Origin: a virus
IMG/VR virus record: IMGVR_UViG_3300017605_000539
Location: 1 to 27,029 of that record
Reading direction: 5' to 3' (one strand)
Length of the DNA: 27,029 nt
Below, in pieces: positions 2,652-22,918 of this stretch. The first letter of the stretch is position 1. Every line of letters begins with the position of its first letter. The position numbers and the translations under genes were made by a program. The notes under the pieces are model-generated. The model saw only the letters and a list, made by a program, of their open reading frames with translations, was not told the origin of the DNA and ran no database searches.

Positions 2652-3055
2652 ATATCTCTAGCCCCACCTCCCTCAAACCACCTGAGCCAAAGAGTATGCC
2701 ACCAAATAAACCTATTGTATGGACATTTAGCGACGCTCTTAAAGAGATTCGTGCAATTGATCCACTAATTCGCGAGAGATACAAATGTTTTCTCGCTTTA
2801 ACTGGAGGAGTTCTAGTAAAAGGCGACTCCTTCAAAGACCTCGACTTAGTTCTTCTCCCAATGAACGGAGACACTTGTCCAGACCTTGAAGGAGCTAAGC
2901 AGTGGTTAGTCTCTCAATGGGGAGAACTTTGGTATTCTGCTACAGCTTCGTTTGATCAGAAATTCACTCCTCTAGTTTTTCAACAATATAGAAATAAAAA
3001 AATCGACCTTATCACATATGCAACTATCAACTCCGACAGCACCAAAGCAAACTGA
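2648..3055 (+). CDS. Stand-alone nucleotidyltransferase-fold protein (MNT/Pol beta-like)
   Basis: A 135-residue protein whose centre reads LTGGVLVKGDSFKDLDLVLLP. This contains the nucleotidyltransferase signature: the GG turn (53-54), then the metal-binding pair Asp64-x-Asp66. A third acidic strand residue lies in KKIDLITY (Asp120). The compact size fits minimal nucleotidyltransferases, which transfer a nucleotide to a protein, RNA or small molecule; the acceptor cannot be read from sequence. The first 20 residues are Pro-rich and probably disordered, and an in-frame ATG at 2696 is an alternative start. It overlaps the upstream stop by ATGA and its last 38 bases overlap the next gene. No adjacent HEPN partner is visible, so a toxin-antitoxin role is not supported. 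Confidence 0.65.
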   Translation: MNISSPTSLKPPEPKSMPPNKPIVWTFSDALKEIRAIDPLIRERYKCFLALTGGVLVKGDSFKDLDLVLLPMNGDTCPDLEGAKQWLVSQWGELWYSATASFDQKFTPLVFQQYRNKKIDLITYATINSDSTKAN

Positions 3056-3782
3056 GCCAAAGTCTATCCTCTTAATCGGCCCTCCCGGTGGAGGTAAAAC
3101 CACTCTTGCAATGCAGTTTCCAGGAGTGTGTTTTATGGACTGTGATCGGAATCTTGATGGACCGGAAAGATTCATTCGACTAAAGAACAAAGACCTATCC
3201 TATGGTTATACTCAAATCACATACAAGGATAACGTTGCGGTTCCAGCGCACGAGTGCTTCGAGCGTCTCTGTGACTCCGTATCAGACCTCAAGACTGAAA
3301 CCAGCATCAAAACCGTCGTTGTTGATGGTCTTACTATGGTCAATGAGTTCATCATCCAAAAGATACTTAAAGCCCAAAGTAAGTCTGAGATGGAAGCCCG
3401 TCACTGGCAGCCCTTCAAAAGTTACATGATCAATCTCCTCGTTGCCAAGCTTCGTGGAACGGGAAAGACTGTTATCTGCACCTGTCACGAAACTATTCTT
3501 GAAAAACCAAACCCTGATCCTAAAAAGGTAATGGACCCAGTTCTTGTTGGTTATCGTCCAGCAATACAAGGAGGAATAACGGATTACTTTGGTGGCTTCT
3601 TCACTGATATGTGGAGATGCACTGCTTTGGTGGCACCTGGAGGAAGTGAGTATAAGATTCAAACTGTTCGAGACACTAAGAGTGATTTGAAGAACAGTTT
3701 GGGACTTCCTGCTGAGATAATTGTAAAAGAAGAAGAGTTAGTTTGGACAAAACTTGAACCTTATTTGAAAGGATTGGTATGA
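3018..3782 (+). CDS. Sak4-like RecA-fold ATPase (phage recombination ATPase)
   Basis: A 254-residue P-loop ATPase. Walker A is GPPGGGKTT at 21-29 and Walker B is TVVVDGL ending near Asp103, with a TCHE sensor-like strand end at 155-158. The size, the single RecA-like core and the lack of extra domains match phage ATPases of the Sak4/AAA_24 group. Those proteins stimulate single-strand annealing or strand exchange alongside a cognate ssDNA-binding protein. A candidate partner lies about 540 bases downstream and a PD-(D/E)XK nuclease lies upstream, which supports a recombination or replication-repair role in the cytoplasm. The first 15 residues are a Pro/Thr/Lys-rich leader encoded inside the end of the nucleotidyltransferase gene. 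No clear Shine-Dalgarno precedes the ATG, so coupling is likely. Confidence 0.8.
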   Translation: MQLSTPTAPKQTEPKSILLIGPPGGGKTTLAMQFPGVCFMDCDRNLDGPERFIRLKNKDLSYGYTQITYKDNVAVPAHECFERLCDSVSDLKTETSIKTVVVDGLTMVNEFIIQKILKAQSKSEMEARHWQPFKSYMINLLVAKLRGTGKTVICTCHETILEKPNPDPKKVMDPVLVGYRPAIQGGITDYFGGFFTDMWRCTALVAPGGSEYKIQTVRDTKSDLKNSLGLPAEIIVKEEELVWTKLEPYLKGLV

Positions 3783-5589: not shown

Positions 5590-6459
5590 ATGACAAACGT
5601 AATCTACCACCGTTCTGACTTTGATGGTTTATTCTGCCAAGCAATAGCTAAAAAGTTTCTTGGCGACAACGCTAACTACTACGGACTTGAATATGGCGAT
5701 CCTCTACCGCCCATTGACGATAGTCCATTATTCATTCTCGACTTCTCTGTGCCAGAATACATGAACCATCCAAGACTCACTTGGATTGATCATCATAAAA
5801 CAGCAATCGAAAAATTTGGGTCTAAACAAGGATTTCAACTTGATGGAGTCGCTGCCTGTCGTCTAGCTTGGCAATACTTCACTATTGAAGGGAAGCAAAA
5901 GGATAGTGACGACGCTTCTCAATGGCCAAAACGTCCAGAGAAACAGGACTTTATCGACCGAATAGTCCTAGAACCTTGGTCAGTTCGTCTTGCCGGCGAG
6001 TATGATGTTTGGGACAAGCGCGATCCTAATGCGGAATTGTTTCAACATGGTCTTAGAAGCGAAGACTTAGACTGGATTAGACTCCTTAATGACGACGACA
6101 CTTACATTTATAGGCTTCTTGAACAAGGTAAAGCCTTACAATACTCAAAAAGTAAAGAAAACGCTTCAATTATCAAAGAAATAGGTTTTACTATTCAATG
6201 GGAAGGACTAACCTTTCTTTGTTGCAATGCTGCGAGATACAACAGTCTTTTATTCACTGCTGGTCTGCTCGAAAACCACGACGCCTGTTTTGGTTTCAAG
6301 TGGACAGGAAAAGATTGGAGCATTTCTCTCTATCATGCACCAGGAAAAGAGCATCACGATCTTTCCATCATTGCTTCAAAGTATGGTGGAGGTGGTCACA
6401 AAGGTGCTTGTGGTTTTAGAACCAAAGAGCTTCCATTCTTGATACAGGTGTTGAAGTGA
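5590..6459 (+). CDS. DHH-family phosphoesterase
   Basis: A 289-residue protein with the DHH-DHHA1 signature. The N-terminal metal motif is HRSDFDG (His7, Asp10, Asp12), followed by Asp51 in FILDFS and the diagnostic IDHHKTAIE (Asp67-His68-His69). The C-terminal DHHA1 glycine loop is GGGGHKGACGF (about 266-276). Family members hydrolyse short RNA oligonucleotides, cyclic dinucleotide products or pAp using Mn2+. A phage version may recycle nanoRNA or act against nucleotide-based signalling, but the substrate cannot be told from sequence. All key metal ligands appear intact. It sits four bases after a small gene and before a 143-base gap. The last 17 coding bases repeat the end of the upstream small gene. 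Confidence 0.85.
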   Translation: MTNVIYHRSDFDGLFCQAIAKKFLGDNANYYGLEYGDPLPPIDDSPLFILDFSVPEYMNHPRLTWIDHHKTAIEKFGSKQGFQLDGVAACRLAWQYFTIEGKQKDSDDASQWPKRPEKQDFIDRIVLEPWSVRLAGEYDVWDKRDPNAELFQHGLRSEDLDWIRLLNDDDTYIYRLLEQGKALQYSKSKENASIIKEIGFTIQWEGLTFLCCNAARYNSLLFTAGLLENHDACFGFKWTGKDWSISLYHAPGKEHHDLSIIASKYGGGGHKGACGFRTKELPFLIQVLK

Positions 6460-6602: not shown

Positions 6603-8105
6603 ATGGAAACTAAAACCTTAACCTTAAAAATAAATGAAATCAAAGTCGAAGATAGACAAAGACTTGACTACGGTGACATACAGTCACTTGCCGCAAGCAT
6701 ACAAAAGTATGGACTTATCCAACCTGTTATCGTCACTGAAGATTACAGACTGGTCGCTGGAGGCAGGCGTTTACGTGCTGCACAATCAATCGGATTGGAA
6801 ACTATTAAAGTCTGCTTTAGAGAAAGAATGTCAGACGAAGAACTCCATATTTTGGAATTAGAAGAGAACCTTAGAAGAAAGGATGAGACGTGGCAAGAAC
6901 GCTGTCTCCACATCAAAACGATCCACGACCTCAAAGTAAAATCTAACGCCCAAGACTCGCTCATCTGGACCCAACGTCAAACGGGTGAACTTCTCGGTGT
7001 AGATAGTGTTCGTGAAATCAACCATGCCTTGAAGATGGCACGATACCTTGAAAGCGAACTTGATGAAAACAAAAAACCAAAACCAGATGCTAAGTATTGG
7101 CAGTGTGAAACCATCTCAGATGCCTTCCGTTTATACTTTAGAACAGCAGAAGAAGCTATGCTCGCCTACTCTGCCCAACAAGCACAAAAGAATGCGGTCT
7201 CACAAACAGTCTTTGAAGAAGAACAAGTCTTACTCTCTGAATTTGAAAGCATTGAAGCGTGTTCTGACGCTTTGTCAGAAGAGAGGAATCGTTACTATTC
7301 TAACCCCTGTAATCCACCAGATTCATTTGAAGAGTATTGGAAAGAAAAACAAGAGTGGGCAACACAAGTCAAACAAACAATCTACCTCTCGAAGAGACTA
7401 ATCAAAGGGGATAGTATTAAATTCATGTGGGACAACCCTGGGCGATTCGATCACGTCATCACCGATATCCCCTATGGTATCAATCTCGAAATGATCAGTC
7501 AATCCAAGAATGAATTTAGAGACATAGACACAGTAGAGGAACTCCACGACGTTGAATACAATAAACAACTCATCTCTGACTTCTTTCCTGCCGCATTTAA
7601 CACCATCAAAGAAAGAGGTTTCTGTATAACATGGTGCGACCAAATGCTTTGGCAATATATGTATGACCTAGCAGTTAAAGCAGGCTTTGCAGTTCAAAGA
7701 TGGCCTATCACTTGGGTTAAGAACACCGCAATGAATTCGTGTATCGCATACAACACCACAAAGGATACAGAAATCGCAATTGTTTGTAGAAAAAAGAAAA
7801 CCACCGCTGCGATGACAAAGAATACCTCTGTTATACATAGTGGAAAAGATGAACTCTGCAACGAGATAGACCACCCATTCGCAAAGCCATTTGAGTGTTG
7901 GCGCTTCCTCACTGAATTCGCCTCCCTAGAATCCCACTCCATCCTCGAACCTTTCGCTGGTCGAGGCTCCGGTGTAATCTCTATGCTTCAACAAGGTAGA
8001 AATGTAACTGGAGTTGAGCTGGATGAAACCCACTATAATGCTTTGATTGATAATGTGAAGCGACTACACTATCTCAAACTCAACCCTAACTATATCTTCA
8101 AATAG
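6603..8105 (+). CDS. ParB-domain/DNA methyltransferase fusion
   Basis: A 500-residue fusion. Residues 5-95 form a ParB/Srx-type domain (SLAASIQKYGLIQPVIV, then VAGGRRLRAAQSIG with the GxRRLRA box). Residues about 120-150 look like the ParB helix-turn-helix (TQRQTGELLGVDSVREINHA). The C-terminal half is a DNA amino-methyltransferase of beta order: motif IV DIPYG (288-292, a variant of DPPY) precedes motif I LEPFAGRGSG (448-457), with GVELDETHYNAL as motif II. Such fusions are found on phages and mobile elements, where the ParB part may guide methylation or act as a CTP/ATP-using switch. Products would be N6-methyladenine or N4-methylcytosine. No cognate endonuclease is adjacent, so it is best seen as an orphan modification enzyme. 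DIPY rather than DPPY or NPPY is unusual. Confidence 0.85.
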   Translation: METKTLTLKINEIKVEDRQRLDYGDIQSLAASIQKYGLIQPVIVTEDYRLVAGGRRLRAAQSIGLETIKVCFRERMSDEELHILELEENLRRKDETWQERCLHIKTIHDLKVKSNAQDSLIWTQRQTGELLGVDSVREINHALKMARYLESELDENKKPKPDAKYWQCETISDAFRLYFRTAEEAMLAYSAQQAQKNAVSQTVFEEEQVLLSEFESIEACSDALSEERNRYYSNPCNPPDSFEEYWKEKQEWATQVKQTIYLSKRLIKGDSIKFMWDNPGRFDHVITDIPYGINLEMISQSKNEFRDIDTVEELHDVEYNKQLISDFFPAAFNTIKERGFCITWCDQMLWQYMYDLAVKAGFAVQRWPITWVKNTAMNSCIAYNTTKDTEIAIVCRKKKTTAAMTKNTSVIHSGKDELCNEIDHPFAKPFECWRFLTEFASLESHSILEPFAGRGSGVISMLQQGRNVTGVELDETHYNALIDNVKRLHYLKLNPNYIFK

Positions 8106-8293: not shown

Positions 8294-8481
8294 CTACATC
8301 AAGACAACCGTGGACAGCTAGTGGTAACGTAATCAAAGACGCAAACGGAAACAACATAGGTGTAATGGTAGATGCAAGAGACGCAGATATTATAATTGGT
8401 TGGCAGGAGTTAAATGAGAAGTTAGATACTGCCGAAGAAAAAATTCAAGAGATTGAGAACGTGTTAAAGGGAGAATACTGA
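8290..8481 (+). CDS. Small acidic protein with C-terminal coiled coil
   Basis: A 63-residue protein starting at an ATGA overlap behind an AAGGAAAAG Shine-Dalgarno region. The first 35 residues look like short beta turns (VIKDANGNNIGVMVDARDADII). Residues 38-60 form a Glu/Lys-rich helix (ELNEKLDTAEEKIQEIENVL) likely to be a coiled coil. The stop overlaps the polymerase start (TGATG), so it is probably co-translated with it. The family is not recognised. Confidence 0.65.
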   Translation: MTTSRQPWTASGNVIKDANGNNIGVMVDARDADIIIGWQELNEKLDTAEEKIQEIENVLKGEY

Positions 8482-11246
8482 TGTCCAAGCTGGACGCTTT
8501 CTCTGCCTTCGACGAGGTTGATGTCGCCTCCGACCCATCTCCTCATTCTGAACGAACCATTGTCCCCAACCAACACCCCTCAATCCCATCCTCCACCTAC
8601 CGCATTGCCATCATCGGTGAAGCACCTGGCCAAGATGAAGAACAACAAAAACGACCCTTCGTTGGAATGTCCGGTCGATTCCTCGACTCCATCCTCTCAA
8701 ACTCCGGCATTGTTCGAGCTTGCACTTTTGTCGGGAATGTTTGTCAAATCCGACCACCTAAAAATGACATTTCCACCTTTAGTTATGATGGTTCTGAAAT
8801 ACAATCTGGTTTGCAAGTTCTCAAAGATGACCTTGACAAGTTCAAACCAAACCTTTGTGTCTTGCTTGGCAAAACTGCCCTCTTTGCCGCTTCAGGGTTA
8901 AAGAATCTTGGAGACTGGAGAGGGAGTTTCTTCGTAGGTTCTCGTCCTCCCTTTGAAGGTATCAAATGTCTCGCCACCTACCATCCAGCAGCGTGCCTAC
9001 GTAACTATGAATGGACACCTCTACTTCGCTTCGATTTGTCTAGGGCTGTTGTTGAAGGTAGAACCAAAGAGTGGCTACCTCCTGCTCGTTCTCTACGTGT
9101 TAACTTATCTTATGATGAACTAATCTATGAACTTACCAAAATTTCCCAAGCAAAGTCTCTTATCTCGTGTGATATTGAAGGTGGTGTTGGCAGCCTGTCT
9201 TGTATCGGCATTGCTACTTCTGCGAATAGCGCATTCATTGTTCCATTTGAGCGACTCGACCGCACCTCGTGTTTTTCTGCCTCTGAAGAAGCGACGCTTT
9301 GGAGGATGGTCTCGTCTATCATGGCAGATCGAGAAGTCCCAAAAGTCTGGCAGAACGGACTCTATGATCGTTTCGTTCTACAATACTCCTACAACATCCT
9401 CGTCAGAAACTCTCTCGACGACACCATGCTCAAGTGGTGGGAACTCTACTGTGAACTAGAAAAGAGTCTCGGCTTTCAATGTTCCATTCTCACCAACGAA
9501 CCTTACTACAAGGCAGATAGAAAAACTACAAATCAAGAAACCTTCTACAAGTATTGCTGCACTGATGCTTGTGTAACCTATGAGATCAATGAAAAGCTCA
9601 CACCACTCCTCACAAGGGAACAAAAAGAACACTACAAGTTCAACAATGAAGCCCTTAACTTCCTTCTATACGCCGAGATACGTGGTATTCGATACGACCA
9701 AGAGACAGCTAACTCTCGTCTATCGGACATTCAGACTAATATTTCCTCCTTGCAAAACCGGCTCGATGAAATCGCTTCCGGTCTCGGAGCATTACAACGA
9801 ATTGATTTCACGCAAGCTAAGGAAGAAATACTCAAAGCTGCTCAAGGACTGCTATGCTACAAAAAAGACCCCACCCGTCCAAAGAAAGGCAAAGAAGAAG
9901 GCTACGAAAAAGTGGCTTCAATCTTGCGCCAAAGCGAAGCTCTTAGCGAAGAAGAGTGCGGAACCATTTCTATCGTATGTGGGTTGACGATGAATACAAA
10001 GAGCACCAAGTTCAAAGACTTCCTTTATGGAACTTGTGGTTTACCTACGCAGTGGAAGAAAGACTTAAAGACGAAAGAGCTTCGACCAACTACTGATTAT
10101 GAAAGTCTTCTTAAACTTTCTAAGTCGCATGACCATCCTGCTCTTGATCTGTCTCTTGATCTCTCTCTACTTCGTACTCGTGCTCAAATGCTGGCTATTA
10201 AGTCTTCTGAAGGACGGATGCACTGTAGCTATAACTTGGTTGGTTCGGAAACTGGTCGCGTTACAAGCAGCAAGTCAATGATTGGTGGCTTTGGAAAGAA
10301 CCGTGTTGGAGCTAATCTACAAACCGTCCCCGACGATTGGGAAGTCTTTGACTCAGACCATCCTGTCCATGATGGTATGCGCGACCTCTTCCTCGCAGAC
10401 GAAGGTTGCTATCTATTCAAATGCGACTTAAAGGGTGCAGATGGTTGGACCATCGGAGCATACATGGCTTCGCTTGGTGATTCAACTATGTTGGATGATT
10501 TGAAGTTTGGACTAAAGCCTGCTCAAATCGTAGCCTACATTCTAAAACACGGAGCAGAAGAAATACAACGCTATGCGAACGACAGACCAAAACTCAAAGA
10601 ACTCGTTAGTGAGATTAAGAAGGACGACTGGGAATACTTTGTTAGCAAGCAAGGTATTTGGGGCACCTGTTACACGATGGGACCTAGAAAATTGGCTGAA
10701 CGAGTATTTATCGAGTCCGAAGGTAAGGTCAATCTATCTGAAAAACAAGCCAAAGACTTTCAAGCTGCAATTTACATTCGATATCGTGTTAAGATATGGC
10801 AGGAGTGGATGCTACGTTTCCTTCAGGCGCAACCCTACCCCGCTAGAGTCTCTGCATCCAATGGACAAGTGCGTCGTTTCTTTGGTCGCAACTCGAAAAA
10901 GAATTGTGAAATCCTAGGTGAAGCACTGGCTCATCTCCCTCAAGTCTATACAACCTATGCCACACTCAAAGCAGCGCGTCGTCTATGGAACGACCCCGAC
11001 AACCGTCACGATAGACGAGATGGTCAAATGGGCCAAACGCTACGAATTGAACCCCTTCACCAAGTCCATGACGAACTCCTCTGCCAAGCCAAAATCTCCG
11101 ATACCTCTTGGGCTATTGATAAACTTAAATCCTACTTTGATAACCCAATTCAAATCGCAAACCAAACAATCATTATCCCTTTTGATGGTGCTTATGGCAC
11201 TGCATGGTCTATGGACGAAACTCATAAGAAAGGTGAAATAAAGTAA
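8481..11246 (+). CDS. Uracil-DNA glycosylase / 3'-5' exonuclease / family A DNA polymerase fusion
   Basis: A 921-residue replicative polymerase fusion. Residues 40-195 are a family 4/5-like uracil-DNA glycosylase: GEAPGQDEE (46-54), PFVGMSGRFLD (59-69) and HPAACLRNY (168-176). No N-terminal CxxC pair is seen, so the usual family 4 iron-sulphur site looks incomplete. Residues 225-380 form a DnaQ-type exonuclease with Asp231-x-Glu233, Asp296 (NGLYD) and Tyr358-x3-Asp362, so proofreading looks intact. The polymerase has motif A CDLKGADGW (Asp649), motif B KQGIWGTCYTMG (723-734) and motif C QVHDELL (His863-Asp864-Glu865). Motif B is atypical. An AGGGAG site lies seven bases before the ATG, which overlaps the previous stop. 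The fusion would couple uracil recognition or removal to synthesis; whether the glycosylase is active is unknown. Confidence 0.9.
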   Translation: MSKLDAFSAFDEVDVASDPSPHSERTIVPNQHPSIPSSTYRIAIIGEAPGQDEEQQKRPFVGMSGRFLDSILSNSGIVRACTFVGNVCQIRPPKNDISTFSYDGSEIQSGLQVLKDDLDKFKPNLCVLLGKTALFAASGLKNLGDWRGSFFVGSRPPFEGIKCLATYHPAACLRNYEWTPLLRFDLSRAVVEGRTKEWLPPARSLRVNLSYDELIYELTKISQAKSLISCDIEGGVGSLSCIGIATSANSAFIVPFERLDRTSCFSASEEATLWRMVSSIMADREVPKVWQNGLYDRFVLQYSYNILVRNSLDDTMLKWWELYCELEKSLGFQCSILTNEPYYKADRKTTNQETFYKYCCTDACVTYEINEKLTPLLTREQKEHYKFNNEALNFLLYAEIRGIRYDQETANSRLSDIQTNISSLQNRLDEIASGLGALQRIDFTQAKEEILKAAQGLLCYKKDPTRPKKGKEEGYEKVASILRQSEALSEEECGTISIVCGLTMNTKSTKFKDFLYGTCGLPTQWKKDLKTKELRPTTDYESLLKLSKSHDHPALDLSLDLSLLRTRAQMLAIKSSEGRMHCSYNLVGSETGRVTSSKSMIGGFGKNRVGANLQTVPDDWEVFDSDHPVHDGMRDLFLADEGCYLFKCDLKGADGWTIGAYMASLGDSTMLDDLKFGLKPAQIVAYILKHGAEEIQRYANDRPKLKELVSEIKKDDWEYFVSKQGIWGTCYTMGPRKLAERVFIESEGKVNLSEKQAKDFQAAIYIRYRVKIWQEWMLRFLQAQPYPARVSASNGQVRRFFGRNSKKNCEILGEALAHLPQVYTTYATLKAARRLWNDPDNRHDRRDGQMGQTLRIEPLHQVHDELLCQAKISDTSWAIDKLKSYFDNPIQIANQTIIIPFDGAYGTAWSMDETHKKGEIK

Positions 11247-11621: not shown

Positions 11622-12833
11622 ATGGACTTTATATCTCAGTATTTTGTTAGTAATAGCGGAACAATGGTTCCTCGTCTCTTTACTCTTTGGAGCGGATTGT
11701 TTGTCTTGGCCACTACGATGGGGCGTCGTATCTATGTTGATCATCAGCATTTCCAGATTCGCCCGAACTTGTATATTACCCTAGTAGGCGAACAAGGCAC
11801 TCGAAAAGGAAGTGCAAAAGATGCCGCCCAAGCAATGTTCTGTGAAACCTTTCCTTCCTTTCCTATCGGCGCAAGTGTAATGTCCCGCGAGCAAATCGTA
11901 GCTCGCATGTCTCACGTCGACAACATCTGTTCCTTCACCGACGAAACTGGAACTCAAATAGAGTGGCATCCATTAACCTTCTTTGTAAATGAACTCAAAA
12001 ACTTCATGTCGATTAACCCATCTACTATGGTGGAGTTTCTTACAGATATCTATGATAGGAAGTTCTTTGCCGCTGACACGATTAAGCACGGACTACAACC
12101 AATTGTCAACCCGTGTATCAATATTCTTGCTTGTGAAACCCCCGAGTGGATCATCGAGAAGATGAAGTATAAAATAACCACTGGTGGATTCTCTCGACGA
12201 ATGTTATATGCCTACGAGGTTGAAAGAGTGCCTCGCCGAACCTTCGCTCACAAATCCAAAGAAGCCTACGAAGCGGAAGGATGGTGCAAACAACACCTTC
12301 TCAAAATCGAAAAGATTGCAGGACCATTCACCTGGACCCAAGAAGCGAGAGTGGAATTTGACAAATGGTTTGTCAATCTCCCCTACCCTGATGATCGAAT
12401 CATTGCTGGTTTCTATGAAGCAAAAGATGTCTTAGCAACCAAAGTTGCCATGCTCTGCGCTATGGCACAAGAGGAACCTAAACTCGAACTCTCTTGGCCA
12501 ATCATGCAACAAGGTATTGCCATCCTAGAAACCATAGAAGTAAACCTCAATCGCTTAACTGTTGCGGCTGGTAGAAACGAACTTTCTGTTCCTCAGAGTC
12601 AAATCCTTCAGAAACTAAAAGACAAAGGTGGTTGGATGCCAGAGAAAGAATTCCATCGTGTTGCTTCTGCCGACATGAGTGAAAGAGAAATCAACGAAAT
12701 GAAATCACTCCTTAAATCAACTGATCAACTCTATGAACACCATATCACCTGTGATGGTTACAACGAAAGGATGGTGTTAAATCACCAGAAGTTCACAGAC
12801 CTTGTAAAAAGTGGAGGGATTAAAATTGTATAG
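11622..12833 (+). CDS. DUF3987-like helicase/primase-type ATPase
   Basis: A 403-residue protein matching the pattern of phage DUF3987 proteins, which are related to replicative helicase-primase ATPases. An opening PRLFTLWSGLFVLATTMGRR is followed by RPNLYITLVGEQGTRKGSA with a relaxed P-loop (Gly56 to Ser64, Lys62). A Walker B-like strand ends in FFVNELKNFM and the core ends in GGFSRRMLYAYE with an arginine-finger-like pair. A C-terminal region from about 320 (SQILQKLKDKGGWMPEKEFHR) resembles a winged helix. It probably unwinds or loads at the replication fork with the upstream polymerase. No other helicase is visible in the window. A shorter overlapping frame with an ATGA start at 11611 was judged spurious. 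It is the last gene of the plus-strand block. Confidence 0.65.
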   Translation: MDFISQYFVSNSGTMVPRLFTLWSGLFVLATTMGRRIYVDHQHFQIRPNLYITLVGEQGTRKGSAKDAAQAMFCETFPSFPIGASVMSREQIVARMSHVDNICSFTDETGTQIEWHPLTFFVNELKNFMSINPSTMVEFLTDIYDRKFFAADTIKHGLQPIVNPCINILACETPEWIIEKMKYKITTGGFSRRMLYAYEVERVPRRTFAHKSKEAYEAEGWCKQHLLKIEKIAGPFTWTQEARVEFDKWFVNLPYPDDRIIAGFYEAKDVLATKVAMLCAMAQEEPKLELSWPIMQQGIAILETIEVNLNRLTVAAGRNELSVPQSQILQKLKDKGGWMPEKEFHRVASADMSEREINEMKSLLKSTDQLYEHHITCDGYNERMVLNHQKFTDLVKSGGIKIV

Positions 12834-12865: not shown

Positions 12866-13018
12866 ATGGATATTCTAACCCCCATACTCCTTCTTGCCCT
12901 CACTGTCCTGGTTGCAACTTCCCTACATTACGTCGAGTCATATTCCAAGCTTTTGTTCTCGCGTGCTCTAGATTTATATCGACATATCGTTGCTTGTCTG
13001 AAGAAGGTAAAGCACTAA
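12866..13018 (+). CDS. Possible small membrane protein overlapping the giant gene antisense
   Basis: An open frame of 50 codons on the plus strand, starting eight bases after dyad copy 2. The peptide begins MDILTPILLLALTVLVATSL, a good single membrane helix, followed by a basic helical tail (SRALDLYRHIVACLKKVKH). Most of it overlaps the C-terminal end of the opposite-strand giant protein, which weakens the case. No Shine-Dalgarno is visible. The dyad-to-ATG arrangement resembles that of the MazG-type gene. It could be real, or a by-product of the opposite coding strand. Confidence 0.3.
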   Translation: MDILTPILLLALTVLVATSLHYVESYSKLLFSRALDLYRHIVACLKKVKH

Positions 13019-16000
13019 TTCTTGGATTACTTTGTAGCTTGTCAAACACCTTTTGATATTCCTCAACGATATGCTTATGAAGAAAGTCTGTCTCCTCCTT
13101 CGTCAAATGCACCGTAACCTTCCCAAGCGTCTTCGAGGTCTCATAATTTCTCAACTTCACTCCACCCTCTTCAATCCACTTCTGTGTGTCTTCCCTTAAT
13201 CCCTTGCGGACATTCTCCAACCTTTCATTACTCTTCTTCATTGCCAACTCTTGACTTCTTTCCTCCGTCAATCCAGTTGGAACTCCCGCAAGTTTCTTGT
13301 TAGTCTCCTTCTCTATTGTCTTTCTCTGACCCAAAGACAATTCCCCAAACTCTTTCCCCTTCTTCTCCTGACTAATCTCACTCTCAACTCTATTCCTTCT
13401 TGAGGTATAACTCTCAGGTGTCGCTGTCATCCCTAATGCACTAGCCACATATTCAACTGGTTTCGCTGGTGATTCACCCTTCTGCGGTATAGCCTGTTGT
13501 GCAATCAAAGGAAGTGCTCTTGTCCCCATTGAAGCTATATCTGAATTCCGTCCGAGGAAATCCTTTCCCGTAACTCCTTCCCATGTAAGTGCTACTGTGG
13601 GTCCAGCATGACCTCGATACCACCTAGATAGTGGATTCTTCTCAGCAGAAAGACTCTTCCAGTTTTCTGGATGTTCAACACTTGTCTTAACAGTGCTTGC
13701 CGCCAAGCGAAGAAGACTTCTATGAATTCCACCAAAGCCTACATTAACCACACTTCCATCATCCTGCTTCACTGCAACATTGAGATAGTCACTTCGAGTT
13801 GGGTCAAGTCTCTTCTTGATCTCATCGTCCTTCATCCCTGCCAACTTTGCGGCAGCATAATAAGTAAGTAAACCACCAATGATAAAACGACTCATTGTGT
13901 TTCTAATCACCTTCCCACTAGCTCCCTGTTCTGCTAGTCCTGCAATCGAATCTACTGCTCCTCGATAATAAGATGGTGCAAGTAAAGCTATCCTCTCCAA
14001 GAGAGACCTTCCATGAGGAACCATTGCACTTTCCATTCTTCCAGACAAAAGACTTGTCTCTATTCCTCTAACAAGTTTTGGCCACTCACTCTTCGGAGCC
14101 GTCTCTCGTAGTGCTTTCCACATCTCTACCTTAGCTACATCAAGTGCAGTTTGAAACTGTCTTCCAAACGCTTCACCAACTGGACCAACCACTGGAACCT
14201 TTGAGAGAAGTTGTCCCTTTCCAAGTCCAGCCATCATCTCTTGCAGCCTACCCACTGAACTTCCCATCTGAGCAAGCTCACTAATTGGGCCTTGATTCTG
14301 TCTTGCATACTCAGAGAAGAACTTTGGACTTGCCATGCTCTGAAGCGACTTAAATTGTGCTTTAGCCCAAATCTTTGGATTGTTATAAAGCATAGGTAGC
14401 ATTTGGATTTGCCCCACACCTAAATCAAACCCAAGCTGAGTTGCTTTCAATAGCGAATTCGTATCTGCTATTGCTTTCATCACATTGCTTTGCTCTGCTG
14501 CAAATTCTCTATTGAGGGTCTTCGCCACCTCAGGATCAAATATCTTCCTAATTAAGATTGGCTGCATCACCTGCCCCTTTGTACGAATGCCTTCAGCTAT
14601 GCGATCAATCTTAGCCTGTGTCATCTCCCCACTCCCTAGCTCCTCAGAGAAAGCCTCCTGTATTTCTGCCTTGACCTGTGCTTCACTCTTTGCTCCAAGA
14701 ACAGGGTCTTTCGCCAACCTCTGATTGGCAATAGCCCGATATAGTCTTTCCACCCCTGAAACAAGTCGCTTCTCTGGATTAGTCTCATACTTATACCCAC
14801 GTTCCCAGCCTTCCTTCTCAGTCGAGAATGCTCTCTTCTGAAATGCAGAGGTTCCTTTTTCAGGTTGCACCTTCGGATGCTCTGTAACGATGCGTGGAAA
14901 GTATGGTTTGAAATCACCACTTTCATCTACCATCTCATCAATCAAATCATACTTCTGAGCTAGTTGAGTAATGCGCTTAGTCAAAGGTTCAATAATCTTA
15001 TTAAACACTTGTGCTTGGCCTGGTGTAAGTTTATAAGCACTTGGATTCTTTCTCAATGCCTCAAACACATCACTCATCTTAAGACTCTGCTTCGGACCTT
15101 CTGTCCTACCTACGTTCAAATCTCCATCTTCACTTACCTTAAACACAGAAGTAATCTGTCCCCTTATCCGCTCACCAACATTAGAAGCTATCGCCGGTCC
15201 TACTCCATGTCTTTCTGCATACCACGTTGCTATGGCTTCATCTTGAGGAGTTCGGATACGGGCTTTACCTCCCATCATTCTACCTAAAATTGGCATCTTC
15301 TCACTAGCAAAAGGTTGACTCCAAATCTTATTTGCTATATCTTTTGGTTGAAGGTCTGGAAGAGGACTCTTGGTGTCAAAGTTCAACGCTGGAAGAGCCT
15401 TGTCCGCTGCTCCCTTAAAATATTCACCAAGTTTTTCTGAAACTCCTTTAACATCTCTAATAGCCTGTGTCACTATAGGTCCAACAGGATTCATGTAAAG
15501 TCTTCCAGCTACTTGCTCTGGACGATCTTTTTCAAAGAGAGAAAACTTTTGTTCGGCTTTGGGGAGAGGATACATTAAGCCAGAAACATCAGTCTTTGGT
15601 GTGCCATCGGGATTTTTGAAGATGAGGTTTTCTCTTGGTTTAGTTGCAGGCTCTCGTCCAGTAGTATAAGGATGGTCAGGATGAGAATCAGGACGAATAA
15701 AAGCATTCTTATGCTCTCCCAAACTCACCTTCTCTCCCTTACTTCCTGTGAGTTCTTCTGCTATCTTTGGAAGGATAGTGTCGTAGTTGAGACGCATACC
15801 GGGTTCTTGTTCCGGTTCTCCTTGTTCCACCATTTTAGTTCCTTCTGGTAGCACAGTATCTTCATCAGGTTCTTCTCTATATCGTTTTAGCACTTTACCA
15901 TCTTTATCCAGCGCTACCCATGTTTCTATTCTGTCATGCCCCTCCGTCATCATCACAGTCTCCGCATCACTCACCATGATATGCGTAGCACCTTCTTTTC

Positions 16001-18995
16001 GTGCTTGGTCAATAGCGGCTTTTAGGATTAGACGGTTATAGTCGCGGAGGAGGGGGTGTCCTTTTTCTTCTACTTCGCGTAGGCGCATCATGCTTTCAGC
16101 ACGTTCTCTATCATATGGCGCACTACCATTACCATGCCCTCTAGCTACCAGTTCTTCTACGCCACGTTTTCTATCAGCTACTTCTTCCCTCACACTCTGC
16201 CCCCACCTACTCTGTGCCTCTGCTATCACCGCTATTTTCTCTCCATTCGGCCCAGTCTTATACTGTATCATCGCCCAACCTAAAGTGTTGGGTAGGTTTT
16301 CGTGGAGGTTGTCAGGTTGCCAGAGTGGTTCGTTTTTGGTGTATTTAGTTCCGGTTATCAGTTCCTTTTCTACTGGCACTGTCTTGTTTGGTATCACCAC
16401 ATCCACTCTTTGCACATTCTTCCCACTCTTACTCTTTGTCCACTCTGGCATTGGTTCAGTAGTAGGTAGGGCGGAGACTTGAGAGTATGCGGAGGTTGCG
16501 CGAGGGCCAGAATGTGAATTTCCTTCTTTACGCATCTGAGCACCTAGACTAAAATACTCAGTTGCTTGTTTGATTTGCTGGTCGGTTAAACCATGCGCAA
16601 TTAAGTCTTTTCGGAATCCCTCAACATCATCGGCCCTTTGATGGTCGCGCCAAACGGAATCAAGAAGTGTTCTAGTTACTGGAGTTTGAGCATCATAGAA
16701 TGTATGTGACAATTCATCATAACGACGTTCTGCCTCACTCACCTTCCCTTCCATCCCATAACTCTCCACCTTCACCTGAGGCCCACCCTCCTGCATCAAC
16801 CTTCCCGCTTCTTCAGGAGTAATCTTACTCTTCCCAACAATAGCCTTATCAATTCCACTCTTCTCATAGATGTCTCTCTCTGCCGGTGTCAACTTATTCT
16901 TCACCCTATTCCACAACTGTTGTGCATCAACTTCTTTCTGTGGATTAGGAAACCCACTCTCTTTAGGGTCAATCGCAATCCTTGGACCAGACAAAGCAAA
17001 CGTATCTCCTCGAAGTTCTTTTTCTCTATTCTTAAACTTATCAATCAAAGCACCAATAGGATTAAGTATACTTCCACCCTCTCCTCCCTGTCCCGGTTTA
17101 ATCCTAGTCTGCATCCCCTTTGCTTGACTAGGGATACTTCCTCCTTGTTCCTTCTGCAACTCTCTCAACCTCTCTGACTGAAGTGGCTCCAATTCATCAA
17201 GTGCTTTTGCTGCTTCTTCTCTTGAATAAAACTTATCGCCCTTAACAAACCCATGTTCAGGTTGTTGTAGTCTGAGCATGGCCCCCTGTATCCCAGGTTG
17301 TGCTGCATAAATATCATTATGCACTTTTCCCTGTTCTCCAACAATCACATTTCCTTCCTTAGTTTTAAGCGCAGGAGTGAACTCACTAGGACGAGCAAGC
17401 TGGGGATATGCCGATATAGGTTCTTTCACCCAAGTAGGACTATCTCCCACTTGCTTAAAGCCGGCTTTCTTAACTAAATTCAATCCACCATCACTAATAG
17501 GTATAGTAACAATTGGAACCTTAGACTTATTCCCTTCTTCCACCAACTGTTGAATCAATCTAGTTGCTCCGCCCAACTTTCTACTCGCTTCTGGAGTTTT
17601 TGCAAAATCTAAATTGATATGTGGTTGACTATAACCAGTATCTCCTTCACCTGCGGCTTCGTGCCAATAGGTTAAAGTCGATCCAGTTTGTTCGTCCTTT
17701 AATGTCTTTACTTCTCCCCGTGCTTCTTGCGATACTCCTGTAGGCTCGGCTTGTTGTGTGCCTTCGCGAAGCTGTTGTATATCATTGCCGCGTGCTTCTC
17801 CGCGTTTTTCTTGTCCATACCCCCCTTGAGTAACTTCTTCTTGATTGCCTCGTATTGTGCTGGCATAGTTTTCTCCTACGTTTGGTTGTGCTTGTTGTAA
17901 TGCATTAGGAATTCCCTCTGCACTGGCTGGTGCTCTAAACGAAATCTCTCCTCCACTTGGCTCAACTGGTGGCTTATTAGGAACCACTGACTCCACCAAA
18001 GGTTGCTGTTGCTGCTCATAGTAAACCTCCCACGGCATCTTATCTTGACCAAGAATTGTTGGACCTTCTTGACTTGGTCTAACTGTCTCTTCTCTAGGTG
18101 CAAAAGTTCTTGGTCCCCTCATCGCCTCTCTTTGTTCCATCGGACTCAACTGTCCCATTGGAAGTGTTCTTGCTGCCGGATCAACCACAAAGCTTGCTCC
18201 TCCCACTGGATTTACTTCTGTTGGAGGTTGATAAGTATTCTCCGGCAACATCAGTCCTCTCTCTCGTGGACCAGGAAAAGGAGTTGCACTATATCCAAGC
18301 TGTCTTTCAGGACCAAGAACATCAGTCTGCCCAGGAAGGTCTTGAATCTTTGGTCCAGGAATCTCATTATATCCAATCCCACTTGGTTGAGGCAACGACA
18401 ATGCGCCTTTCGCCATCATCACTGGAAAAATGATATTAGCCAGCAACCTAAGGGCATTCTCCGTCGTCTGCTGACCTCCTTGACTTTGACTCAAATCCTG
18501 TGTTGCTTGAGGTATATCCGATACCATCTGAGGAGAAAAACTCACCGCTGGAAGAACTGGATTTATCTTTCCACTTACTAACCCAGCCATTGCTTTTGGA
18601 CTAGTCAACCCACTAACCACTCCTGCTGCAAAGTTCTGCACTCCCTTTCCTACACTTCCTTCTGAAGCAATTCCAGGAGTGAAAAATTCAACTCCTTGTC
18701 TTGCTACTTCAGGAGAAATTGCTGGAGTCTCAAATTGGTTTCCTCCAGTTCCTACACTTAATGCATCCGTAATCGCAGTGATTGGGTCAATCCTCGAAAG
18801 AACTCTCGTGGGCCAATACAACGCATTAGCCACCTGTTCCAGTCCACTCAACTGTGTAGTATCTCCTTGCGGAATACTAGCCATCACTTGTTCTTTAGTC
18901 TTCTTCGTCTTTGGTAAAGCAAAATCCTCCCAAGGAGGACTCTCGACTGCGGTATTAGTTTGGGCAAAATCTTCCCAAGGAAGTGTGTCTGGCAT
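12900..18995 (-). CDS. Giant multidomain internal virion (ejection) protein
   Basis: About 2031 residues if started at ATG 18995, four bases after the upstream gene's stop and behind GGGAAAAGG; an in-frame ATG at 19040 would overlap that gene. The N-terminus carries PWEDF twice and a third PWEVY near 320, then about 400 low-complexity Pro/Gln/Gly-rich residues. Residues about 440-525 look like a GNAT acetyltransferase (KLGGATRLIQQLVEEG, LVKKAGFKQV). Residues about 895-1095 (GWAMIQYK, VIAEAQSRWGQ, MRLNYDTILPKIAEEL) resemble a domain of large phage polyvalent proteins, which are packaged and injected. The last 850 residues are mostly helical, with one hydrophobic stretch (RFIIGGLLTYYAAAKLAGM), as in podoviral ejection proteins. 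No lysozyme or protease motif was recognised. It is last in the late operon. Virion location and injection are inferred. Confidence 0.7.
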   Translation of the reverse strand: MPDTLPWEDFAQTNTAVESPPWEDFALPKTKKTKEQVMASIPQGDTTQLSGLEQVANALYWPTRVLSRIDPITAITDALSVGTGGNQFETPAISPEVARQGVEFFTPGIASEGSVGKGVQNFAAGVVSGLTSPKAMAGLVSGKINPVLPAVSFSPQMVSDIPQATQDLSQSQGGQQTTENALRLLANIIFPVMMAKGALSLPQPSGIGYNEIPGPKIQDLPGQTDVLGPERQLGYSATPFPGPRERGLMLPENTYQPPTEVNPVGGASFVVDPAARTLPMGQLSPMEQREAMRGPRTFAPREETVRPSQEGPTILGQDKMPWEVYYEQQQQPLVESVVPNKPPVEPSGGEISFRAPASAEGIPNALQQAQPNVGENYASTIRGNQEEVTQGGYGQEKRGEARGNDIQQLREGTQQAEPTGVSQEARGEVKTLKDEQTGSTLTYWHEAAGEGDTGYSQPHINLDFAKTPEASRKLGGATRLIQQLVEEGNKSKVPIVTIPISDGGLNLVKKAGFKQVGDSPTWVKEPISAYPQLARPSEFTPALKTKEGNVIVGEQGKVHNDIYAAQPGIQGAMLRLQQPEHGFVKGDKFYSREEAAKALDELEPLQSERLRELQKEQGGSIPSQAKGMQTRIKPGQGGEGGSILNPIGALIDKFKNREKELRGDTFALSGPRIAIDPKESGFPNPQKEVDAQQLWNRVKNKLTPAERDIYEKSGIDKAIVGKSKITPEEAGRLMQEGGPQVKVESYGMEGKVSEAERRYDELSHTFYDAQTPVTRTLLDSVWRDHQRADDVEGFRKDLIAHGLTDQQIKQATEYFSLGAQMRKEGNSHSGPRATSAYSQVSALPTTEPMPEWTKSKSGKNVQRVDVVIPNKTVPVEKELITGTKYTKNEPLWQPDNLHENLPNTLGWAMIQYKTGPNGEKIAVIAEAQSRWGQSVREEVADRKRGVEELVARGHGNGSAPYDRERAESMMRLREVEEKGHPLLRDYNRLILKAAIDQARKEGATHIMVSDAETVMMTEGHDRIETWVALDKDGKVLKRYREEPDEDTVLPEGTKMVEQGEPEQEPGMRLNYDTILPKIAEELTGSKGEKVSLGEHKNAFIRPDSHPDHPYTTGREPATKPRENLIFKNPDGTPKTDVSGLMYPLPKAEQKFSLFEKDRPEQVAGRLYMNPVGPIVTQAIRDVKGVSEKLGEYFKGAADKALPALNFDTKSPLPDLQPKDIANKIWSQPFASEKMPILGRMMGGKARIRTPQDEAIATWYAERHGVGPAIASNVGERIRGQITSVFKVSEDGDLNVGRTEGPKQSLKMSDVFEALRKNPSAYKLTPGQAQVFNKIIEPLTKRITQLAQKYDLIDEMVDESGDFKPYFPRIVTEHPKVQPEKGTSAFQKRAFSTEKEGWERGYKYETNPEKRLVSGVERLYRAIANQRLAKDPVLGAKSEAQVKAEIQEAFSEELGSGEMTQAKIDRIAEGIRTKGQVMQPILIRKIFDPEVAKTLNREFAAEQSNVMKAIADTNSLLKATQLGFDLGVGQIQMLPMLYNNPKIWAKAQFKSLQSMASPKFFSEYARQNQGPISELAQMGSSVGRLQEMMAGLGKGQLLSKVPVVGPVGEAFGRQFQTALDVAKVEMWKALRETAPKSEWPKLVRGIETSLLSGRMESAMVPHGRSLLERIALLAPSYYRGAVDSIAGLAEQGASGKVIRNTMSRFIIGGLLTYYAAAKLAGMKDDEIKKRLDPTRSDYLNVAVKQDDGSVVNVGFGGIHRSLLRLAASTVKTSVEHPENWKSLSAEKNPLSRWYRGHAGPTVALTWEGVTGKDFLGRNSDIASMGTRALPLIAQQAIPQKGESPAKPVEYVASALGMTATPESYTSRRNRVESEISQEKKGKEFGELSLGQRKTIEKETNKKLAGVPTGLTEERSQELAMKKSNERLENVRKGLREDTQKWIEEGGVKLRNYETSKTLGKVTVHLTKEETDFLHKHIVEEYQKVFDKLQSNPRISALPSSDKQRYVDINLEHARTKAWNMTRRNVGKLQPGQ

Positions 18996-18996
18996 A

Positions 18997-19896
18997 CTAT
19001 TGAACCTTTTCCCAACTAGCTTTGTCGGCTGGATTACCACCTTTGAACTTATATCCTTTACTTATAGTCCCAACTGCTGGACCTTTAGAAGGAGAAGTCA
19101 CAGGTTGTTGCACATTCAATTGTGGCTGCGGAGCATTAGTTGCTTGATTCATCACATAGGGAAGTAATGCTTGAATACTCGCATTGATCTGTTTATACTC
19201 AGGTGCATCTTCAGCACCTGCTGCTTGATAGTGTCCTTGAAGGGATTGCAGAGAACCAAAAGCTTTAAGAAGATCACTCTGTCCAGCAGCAGGTGCCATT
19301 CCCTCTGCAATAGGAGCACCACCCATTCCCGGCACCATCACATTTCCTCTAGGAATAGTTCTCGGACTCTGCATCATCGTGTTTTGGTTAAGCACATCAT
19401 ACAATGAACCTCCTGCTGGAACATTAGCGGTCATCTTCGTTCCGGTCGCCATCATCTGTTGTGCTCTTGGGTTATTCATCTGAAGAATCTGCGCCAGATT
19501 CACCGGAACATGCTGCTGCCCCTGTCCACTAAGTTTTGCTGCTTGACCCAAAATAAGTGGCATCAAGTCAGCTTGAGTATTTTGTGGCACTCTATTATAG
19601 TCTGTAACAAGGTCTCCCATCGTTCCTGCCGCTTGTTGCTTCTGATTCAAATCATTAGCTTGTGCAGTATAGTGTTCAGCCTGTGCACCACTCTCTTTCA
19701 CCTGTGCTCCATAGAGTTGCTCCTGCATCCTCTTATGCATCATATCACTCGCAAGCTCCGCTTGTTTCAACGCTAAAGCTTGACGCTGTTGCTCCATCAT
19801 ATACTTCTGTTGCGCCATCCCAATCGCGAGACGATTGATCGAGTTTCCTAATTCACTAACTCCCGGTGTGGCCATTTGATATTGTGATAGTGGCAT
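18997..19896 (-). CDS. Putative internal virion protein, Gln/Ala-rich
   Basis: A 299-residue protein. Residues about 15-100 are helical and Gln/Met/Ala-rich (MAQQKYMMEQQRQALALKQAEL), typical of DNA-ejection or internal virion proteins. The middle is Met/Gln/Pro-rich and probably disordered. The C-terminus, KGYKFKGGNPADKASWEKVQ, fits a pattern I recall at the ends of phage proteins encoded just before large virion proteins. The stop lies one base before the giant protein's ATG, implying coupled synthesis. There are no membrane or catalytic motifs. Assignment is by composition and position in the late block. Confidence 0.6.
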   Translation of the reverse strand: MPLSQYQMATPGVSELGNSINRLAIGMAQQKYMMEQQRQALALKQAELASDMMHKRMQEQLYGAQVKESGAQAEHYTAQANDLNQKQQAAGTMGDLVTDYNRVPQNTQADLMPLILGQAAKLSGQGQQHVPVNLAQILQMNNPRAQQMMATGTKMTANVPAGGSLYDVLNQNTMMQSPRTIPRGNVMVPGMGGAPIAEGMAPAAGQSDLLKAFGSLQSLQGHYQAAGAEDAPEYKQINASIQALLPYVMNQATNAPQPQLNVQQPVTSPSKGPAVGTISKGYKFKGGNPADKASWEKVQ

Positions 19897-21499: not shown

Positions 21500-22918
21500 T
21501 CATTTTTTGTTTCCAAGATTATACACCAAGCTAAGCTTTCCAAACTTAACCGCTGCGTTATTCCAACAAGTTCCTCTAAACTTTACATGAGTTCCAAATC
21601 CACTCACTGGAAATCTTCCAACATCAAAGGTTGAGTCATTAACCATCAAAGGACTTGTTGGACTTCCTCGATCAAACACCTTAAACAAACTTGTTCCTCT
21701 AGGATTGACTCCATACTCTCCAAGCCAATCTCCACTAAATGCAGCGTCAACTGCAAGAATCTGTTTGTTGTCGGAGATCATCTTGAGGTCAAGCCAAGGA
21801 AGTTCAAACTGCAATCTACAATGATCGTAGGTGGTATTATCAGCTCCACCATATCTCATCACTTCTGTATTTGAAGACATTGCAAAAATCTGTCCACCAT
21901 GAGAAAGCATCTTTACTGGTGCCCACTCCCTATTCTCTGTAAGCGTTCCAGCAACAACTGCAAATGGAGTTCCTGTTACTGTTGCCACGAGTCCATCAAT
22001 ATCAAATCCTCCTGATTCAGTTAACACATTGGAACCATTAACTAACTGAGTCTCTCCTGCTCCTTTAGTCCAATAGTATGATCTTCCTAAAACAAGGGTA
22101 TAAGTAACTAATCCTCCAGCATCATAGTTAGCTGCATTTGGAGTCTTATCTATTGCATAGGTAGGTAAGAATCTCGACCACGCTTGAATTTTTGATCCTG
22201 GAAAGCTTGAAAGAACATAAATACTAGTCCCAAGAAATAACCAATATTGTTTTGTAGTTGACTCGATAACTGAACAGGCTCCGCTATCGTCAACATAAGG
22301 AACTCCAATTGCTACTAAATCTGCGCGAATGAGTGAATCAATCGGTGTTCCAATATCATCCACATACGCATTAAGATTTGCTTCTTTTGTTCTTAAACTT
22401 CTAACTCCAGTTCTATCAAGATAGTAGACATCCAAATCTCCAATACTTTGAATTGACAAACTTGCTATGGTTCCTGAGTTATTAAGAGTCTGAAGAAGAG
22501 AAAACAATGCTGGGTCTGCATCTATTTGCCAAATCTGAATAGAGTATTTTGCAAACACCGCAAGTTTTCCCTGCATTGTGGCAAAACCTCTAACCGTGTC
22601 TTGCTGTCCAAATTGAGAAGTATAGCTAACAATCGCACTTCCTGCGTCTTGTTCCTCCCATAAAGTTACGTCTCCGTTAGTAGATAGAGCAAAATTCGAC
22701 CCAAGAGAAAGATATGCTCTGTCTCGTAGGGACATTCCATAAGTATAAGCTTGTCCTGCAATGTTTCCTTTACCTAGAATGAAGTTTCCACTTAAAGTAG
22801 AAACAATCTCTGTCGTCCAACTTTCTCCAGCAACCCAAGTTCCAGTAAATCTAAACTTGTGCTTCTGTCCTACTGCGTTGATTGGTGCTGTAGCACCAGA
22901 AAAAGCGTATGTAGCCAT
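21500..22918 (-). CDS. Beta-propeller-like tail protein (tail tube / stabilisation second part)
   Basis: The protein has 472 residues, is almost all beta, and is built from repeated strand-turn units such as GKLAVFAKYSIQIWQID, GDLDVYYLDRTGVRSLR, KQYWLFLGTSIYVLSSF and GGQIFAMSSNTEVMRYG. This resembles the propeller-like main body of podoviral tail tubular protein B (T7 gp12) and P22-type DNA-stabilisation proteins. Its N-terminus lacks the usual opening of those proteins, which is instead found in the upstream gene. The ATG overlaps the upstream TAA by one base (TAATG), so the two are made together. It probably forms the tail tube or nozzle in the virion. The family match is by pattern only. 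Confidence 0.55.
   Translation of the reverse strand: MATYAFSGATAPINAVGQKHKFRFTGTWVAGESWTTEIVSTLSGNFILGKGNIAGQAYTYGMSLRDRAYLSLGSNFALSTNGDVTLWEEQDAGSAIVSYTSQFGQQDTVRGFATMQGKLAVFAKYSIQIWQIDADPALFSLLQTLNNSGTIASLSIQSIGDLDVYYLDRTGVRSLRTKEANLNAYVDDIGTPIDSLIRADLVAIGVPYVDDSGACSVIESTTKQYWLFLGTSIYVLSSFPGSKIQAWSRFLPTYAIDKTPNAANYDAGGLVTYTLVLGRSYYWTKGAGETQLVNGSNVLTESGGFDIDGLVATVTGTPFAVVAGTLTENREWAPVKMLSHGGQIFAMSSNTEVMRYGGADNTTYDHCRLQFELPWLDLKMISDNKQILAVDAAFSGDWLGEYGVNPRGTSLFKVFDRGSPTSPLMVNDSTFDVGRFPVSGFGTHVKFRGTCWNNAAVKFGKLSLVYNLGNKK

Follow-up and report, generated by a model that had tools for sequence, protein, structure and literature searches.

Polyvalent proteins of phages and conjugative elements include GNAT and zincin-like peptidase domains (Iyer et al. 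2017, PMC5512222) and are thought to be a first strike arriving with the phage DNA. The same work describes T4 Alt, a protein-modifying enzyme injected with the phage DNA. The window analyzed here, a complete IMG/VR virus record of 27,029 bases from an uncultured phage, contains a giant gene whose product we read, with a probability of roughly 0.6, as a packaged polyvalent protein: a conserved, GNAT-fold-like chassis with exchangeable cargo, in this case a compact GNAT modifying the host.

The chain of about 2031 residues that the preliminary description placed at 12900-18995 was confirmed as one open frame of 2,031 aa, lying on the minus strand (the strand had not been given) and running from the ATG at 18995 to the stop at 12900 (12900-12902). 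An AAAAGG stretch resembling a ribosome site precedes this ATG directly on its 5' side, and an alternative GTG start at 19040 would run into the gene upstream. The start lies 1 nt past the stop of the upstream 299-aa gene. The giant gene is the final gene of the virion/tail operon and is convergent with the replication genes, an arrangement that is kept in the relatives; the operon genes directly upstream of it had their best matches in L002 and L017. The features of the region, with residues numbered along the giant protein, are as follows:

11622..12833 (+), DUF3987-like gene (E 8e-6, just below the cut-off) that converges on the giant gene and has a match in 15 of the 20 relatives
12900..18995 (-), giant polyvalent-type protein, 2,031 aa (ORF translation)
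12903..15560 (-), residues 1146-2031, C-terminal region, divergent and with a mild helix propensity, without a family match
15561..17006 (-), residues 664-1145, conserved core, a homologue of the EIQSDWHQ domain, with a GNAT-fold-like sub-domain predicted at about 833-1145
17121..17375 (-), residues 541-625, a short segment of the pattern 'GFV..F.SREEA..L.SE'
17406..17723 (-), residues 425-530, compact GNAT-like domain in the cargo slot, with motif A R472-K-L-G-G-A477 and motif B ending GF512-513
17736..18398 (-), residues 200-420, low-complexity linker rich in P/G/Q/S (41% P+G+Q+S)
18396..18995 (-), residues 1-200, N-terminal region, which contains PWEDFA motifs and shows 45% identity with L002 across 199 aa
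18997..19896 (-), 299-aa protein of the virion operon, with synteny kept in L002 and L017
19900..20559 (-), 219-aa protein of the virion operon, likewise with synteny kept in L002 and L017
20563..21492 (-), Q-rich product of the virion operon, about 310 aa long and by eye similar to internal virion proteins; 5 relatives have a match
21500..24321 (-), a pair of genes (21500-22918 and 22918-24321) that by eye resemble tail-tube genes and whose place upstream of the giant gene is conserved

The position of the giant gene among late virion genes is a conserved placement after the tail/virion genes, the tail assignment being partly by eye. The phage morphology is unproven because the P22-portal search gave matches only in G012 and G015, both below the cut-off, and the T7-type portal search found no match anywhere, its controls being silent as well. 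Elsewhere in the window, on the plus strand, a family-A DNA polymerase (8481-11246; N-terminus uracil-DNA-glycosylase-like by eye) was matched in ten relatives, a gene at 6603-8105 combines, by eye, a ParB-like N-terminus with a DNA-methyltransferase-like region (52-66% identity in L002 and L003), and the gene at 5590-6459 looks DHH-phosphoesterase-like.

For the full-length giant protein, searches of Pfam (best E 0.72), PHROG and PDB gave no match, and its tblastn search of 50,697 phage records was negative. Among phage records there was also no match in a near-identity search or in tblastn with the L027 core. Two scans of viral contigs, after the merging of duplicate contigs, provided 20 relatives (L002-L012, L017, L020, L023, L027-L032), and no cultured relative was found in the viral contigs and phage records searched. 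The core is present as well on L035, a short contig from a metagenome bin assigned to Proteobacteria; since this contig could be either a prophage or a phage binned wrongly, it does not point firmly to a host. The giant gene of L009 is broken into two frames within the core domain (8771-8895) by a frameshift, a stop or an assembly error.

The core, at about residues 664-1145, is common to all 20 relatives, with 31-57% identity to the window protein, and is strongly conserved over about 696-1145. Of its residues, 37 are invariant, including many polar ones (H898, E899, N900, E926, Q928, S929, R930, K992), and much of the giant protein outside it diverges. Profile comparison by hhalign aligned the core with the EIQSDWHQ family over 133 columns (probability 93.8, E 1.7e-7), and its BFVD matches (E 6e-9 to 7e-4) were large phage proteins, mostly of uncultured Caudovirales, three of which are named 'Large polyvalent protein associated domain'. 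The EIQSDWHQ motif occurs in no fewer than 120 viral stretches (at least 120 in the search), and 80 of these sequences were examined. Twenty long EIQSDWHQ proteins also contained ART-PolyVal (in four), InPase, LPD38, LPD39, LPD22, PBECR5 and GGDEF domains; since each Pfam family found was present in at most four of the twenty, the domain that they have in common is uncatalogued in the Pfam copy searched. The EIQSDW motif was not found printed in the literature searched. Judged by sequence, the core is homologous to this very common, uncatalogued domain of phage polyvalent proteins, and the giant protein shares domains with known polyvalent proteins. The polyvalent-type domain of the preliminary description is hence significant by hhalign and BFVD, but its range of about 895-1095 was drawn too narrowly and extends over approximately 664-1145. 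In the annotated phage MW202675.1 (L158), an EIQSDWHQ-type protein (42531-45074) is encoded two genes past the head-to-tail connector gene.

Flanking parts of the protein are less uniform. The disordered linkers described earlier correspond to the P/G/Q/S-rich stretch at about 200-420. Residues 541-700 show 34% identity to L007 (E 5e-10). Along the C-terminal region (1146-2031), L002 alone aligns over the length (24% identity), and L017 and L003 show short stretches. The long helical ejection-type C-terminus proposed previously is weakly borne out, the region having a mildly raised helix propensity but neither a family match nor a TM-like segment: at a hydropathy threshold of 1.6, no such segment was detected in the window protein, and one or two were present in 7 of the 12 proteins scanned.

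The compact region was searched as a slice (420-531), for which Pfam returned only two matches, Acetyltransf_10 and Acetyltransf_18, both GNAT and both sub-cut-off at E 0.19 (12.2 bits for Acetyltransf_10, cut-off 23.6). In phmmer against PDB, several GNATs appeared near E 1 alongside unrelated chains. A profile of 24 cellular GNATs scored the region at 7.2 bits, the top of 1,498 family tiles outside L032, and none of 1,000 shuffles reached this score; the alignment places motifs A and B in register over residues 467-523, the C-terminal half of a GNAT. The A-to-B spacing pattern (RxxGxA...GF order) was present only in the window protein and L032 among 22 family sequences (42,943 residues), against 0.007 expected per shuffled protein, a count weakened by the pattern having been written after the sequence was seen. 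The single-sequence model is poor (pLDDT 57) and has the order beta-beta-alpha-beta-alpha-beta. Its comparison with known structures, of the kind suggested in the preliminary description, matched FemX, TacT and Elp3, but also DNase-I-like and other folds.

No homologue of the compact region was detectable in viral contigs or in 387 genomes. The tblastn match of the slice in the Erwinia jumbo phage pEa_SNUABM_37 (E 0.1), inspected residue by residue, seems to lie in an unrelated subunit of RNA-polymerase type and was rejected as chance. A Pantoea plasmid GNAT aligned with the slice in register (E 2, 28% over 109 aa), which is weak support; a two-row profile of the slice and this protein matches PDB GNATs, a result that the Pantoea row alone could explain. 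The absence of any GNAT or polyvalent similarity in sensitive profile searches, named beforehand as the outcome that would count against the domain assignments, did not occur: the polyvalent similarity was significant, and the GNAT similarity was sub-threshold but specific. The acetyltransferase-like region previously placed at 440-525 is thus borne out by motifs better than chance (467-523), but below curated cut-offs. A compact GNAT spanning about 425-530 is the preferred interpretation, one that is probably right but not proven. We consider it likely that residues 425-530 form a true GNAT domain. This GNAT would be cargo of the window lineage only and not a function conserved across the family.

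The sequence around the core is variable between relatives. The flank slot spans about 385-640 in the window protein, and L017, one of its nearest relatives, has no GNAT in the corresponding place. In L032, a GNAT of about 105 aa is inserted in the beta-hairpin loop of the core itself (27.5 bits, cut-off 23.6); it was the only one found when the family's records were searched with Acetyltransf_10. HExxH (zincin-like) motifs stand before or after the core in L005, L008, L009, L011, L012, L027, L030, L031 and L032; these modules are known by motif, the sole Pfam metallopeptidase match being a weak one (L008, Tox-MPTase4, E 0.0046). A DUF2188-like piece is above the cut-off in L017 and very weak in L003. 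Concerning the presence of at least two disparate domains, the core is certain, the GNAT-like domain of the window protein is likely, though sub-cut-off, and the GNAT of L032 is clear. Two relatives have a small separate gene on the upstream side of the giant one that is GNAT-like, in L030 by a Pfam match (581-1036; Acetyltransf_1, E 0.0012) and in L023 by eye only (2959-3318). What is new here is the core family with its domain insertions and slots, the theme itself having been published already (Iyer 2017).

These data bear on a purely structural role, in which the giant protein would be a T7 gp16-like ejection or internal virion protein, the GNAT-like stretch a decayed or chance resemblance and the core only structural or DNA-conducting. 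A gene closing the virion operon beside small internal-protein-like genes would suit such a role, as would the long divergent tail, the slot missing in L017 and the sub-threshold score of the compact GNAT. However, 37 invariant core positions, many of them polar, are unusual for a structural spacer, core homologues were found in proteins with several enzyme domains, and the window protein has neither a TM-like segment nor a PHROG or Pfam match. We regard the structural role as unlikely and prefer the polyvalent protein with exchangeable cargo.

The core chassis of this polyvalent protein was modeled with AlphaFold2 from 20 sequences (pLDDT 73.7). Its main elements include three strands, helix, strand, helix, strand, strand, which is the GNAT order. 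With VIA, the best 50 rows were almost all GNAT-superfamily structures, with rmsd of about 3.1-6.5 Å (mostly 3-4.5 Å) over 102-143 residues and Z of 7.8-6.7, every core Z being under 8 and so below the level that the tool calls safe; Foldseek against PDB gave no match at E <= 0.001. The CoA-binding loop Q/RxxGxG/A between beta4 and alpha3 is not conserved in the core family. We term the core GNAT-fold-like, and not an acetyltransferase, because this conserved motif is missing in the family; its resemblance to GNATs is a predicted one, by fold alone. For many of the top-scoring sequences among the 80, the EIQSDWHQ helix-strand falls into the GNAT register, with insignificant scores. Where core tiles scored against the GNAT profile through an out-of-register alignment, as some did, they were discarded as evidence. 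With respect to the preliminary description, two corrections follow: the conserved polyvalent domain itself looks GNAT-fold-like, and the GNAT at 440-525 is lineage cargo.

The conserved core might instead be an active acyltransferase-like enzyme, with 425-530 as its accessory duplicate. Its GNAT-like topology, the structural matches, the strict polar conservation and the common GNAT register of the EIQSDWHQ helix-strand (insignificant scores, best-scoring of 80 sequences) would agree with that, but the family has no conserved Q/RxxGxG/A loop, the sole match to the pattern in the core, RGHGNG at 952, sits inside a variable insert, and in the model an insert of about 50 residues parts beta4 from alpha3. 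We find an active core quite doubtful. The broader proposal that the EIQSDWHQ / EAQSRWGQ domain, with its at least 120 viral stretches, represents a family of divergent enzymes with the GNAT fold, which phages inject and which serves as a chassis for swappable cargo, is put forward tentatively, as a possibility somewhat short of even. If it were true, the giant protein would deliver two GNAT-fold domains in one chain, one conserved and one lineage-specific.

According to the preferred reading, that of a packaged protein with a GNAT-fold-like chassis and a compact GNAT as cargo, an uncultured tailed phage would make the giant protein late, at the same time as its tail proteins and internal virion proteins; most likely, the giant protein would be packaged and then ejected with the genome. 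The core (664-1145), with its predicted GNAT-like fold, would be the chassis, its loops and flanks taking up exchangeable domains; the flank slot at about 385-640 would be filled here by the compact GNAT-like domain, which the nearest relative lacks there, and in other relatives GNAT or HExxH modules would occupy the same or other positions. In the cytoplasm, the compact GNAT could acetylate, or otherwise acylate, a host macromolecule early in infection, and the chassis domain may perform a separate conserved job. Packaging, ejection and early host modification are what we infer from the gene position and by analogy with polyvalent proteins (PMC5512222) and ejection proteins (PMC8954989). That the giant protein is instead expressed early and stays in the cytoplasm unpackaged would be compatible with the phage group being uncultured, but is very improbable for a gene that has the orientation of the tail and virion genes, lies almost contiguous with them (1-nt gap) and, in the relatives, converges on the replication genes.

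Compared with gp16, the ejection protein of T7-like podoviruses (PMC8954989), the giant protein is likewise very large and encoded in a virion block after small internal-protein-like genes, but it has no sequence match to gp16, and no lysozyme or TM segment was detected. No similarity to known ejection proteins was found in PHROG, in Pfam or by tblastn in 50,697 phage records; such proteins diverge fast, and a common role is possible. With the RimI-like GNATs (Acetyltransf_7, Acetyltransf_10), region 425-530 has in common a motif A (RKLGGA) and a motif B (...KKAGF) that are correctly ordered and spaced; unlike them, it is no longer than about 105 aa and is missing the N-terminal half, its score is below the cut-off, and the searches found no close homologue. 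T4 Alt offers a precedent for an injected modifying enzyme but is an ADP-ribosyltransferase. The giant protein differs from known polyvalent proteins in a core lying outside any Pfam family (in the copy searched), with a GNAT-like predicted fold and, in L032, a beta-hairpin insertion; it resembles them in being large and encoded beside virion genes and in that relatives of its core co-occur with ART-PolyVal, InPase, LPD22/38/39, PBECR5 and GGDEF domains. Many polyvalent domains have no assigned activity, and a GNAT fold of the EIQSDWHQ domain, if correct, would supply an initial concrete hypothesis, with candidate residues, for one that is very frequent. The giant-protein family displays natural domain exchange in and around a fixed chassis.
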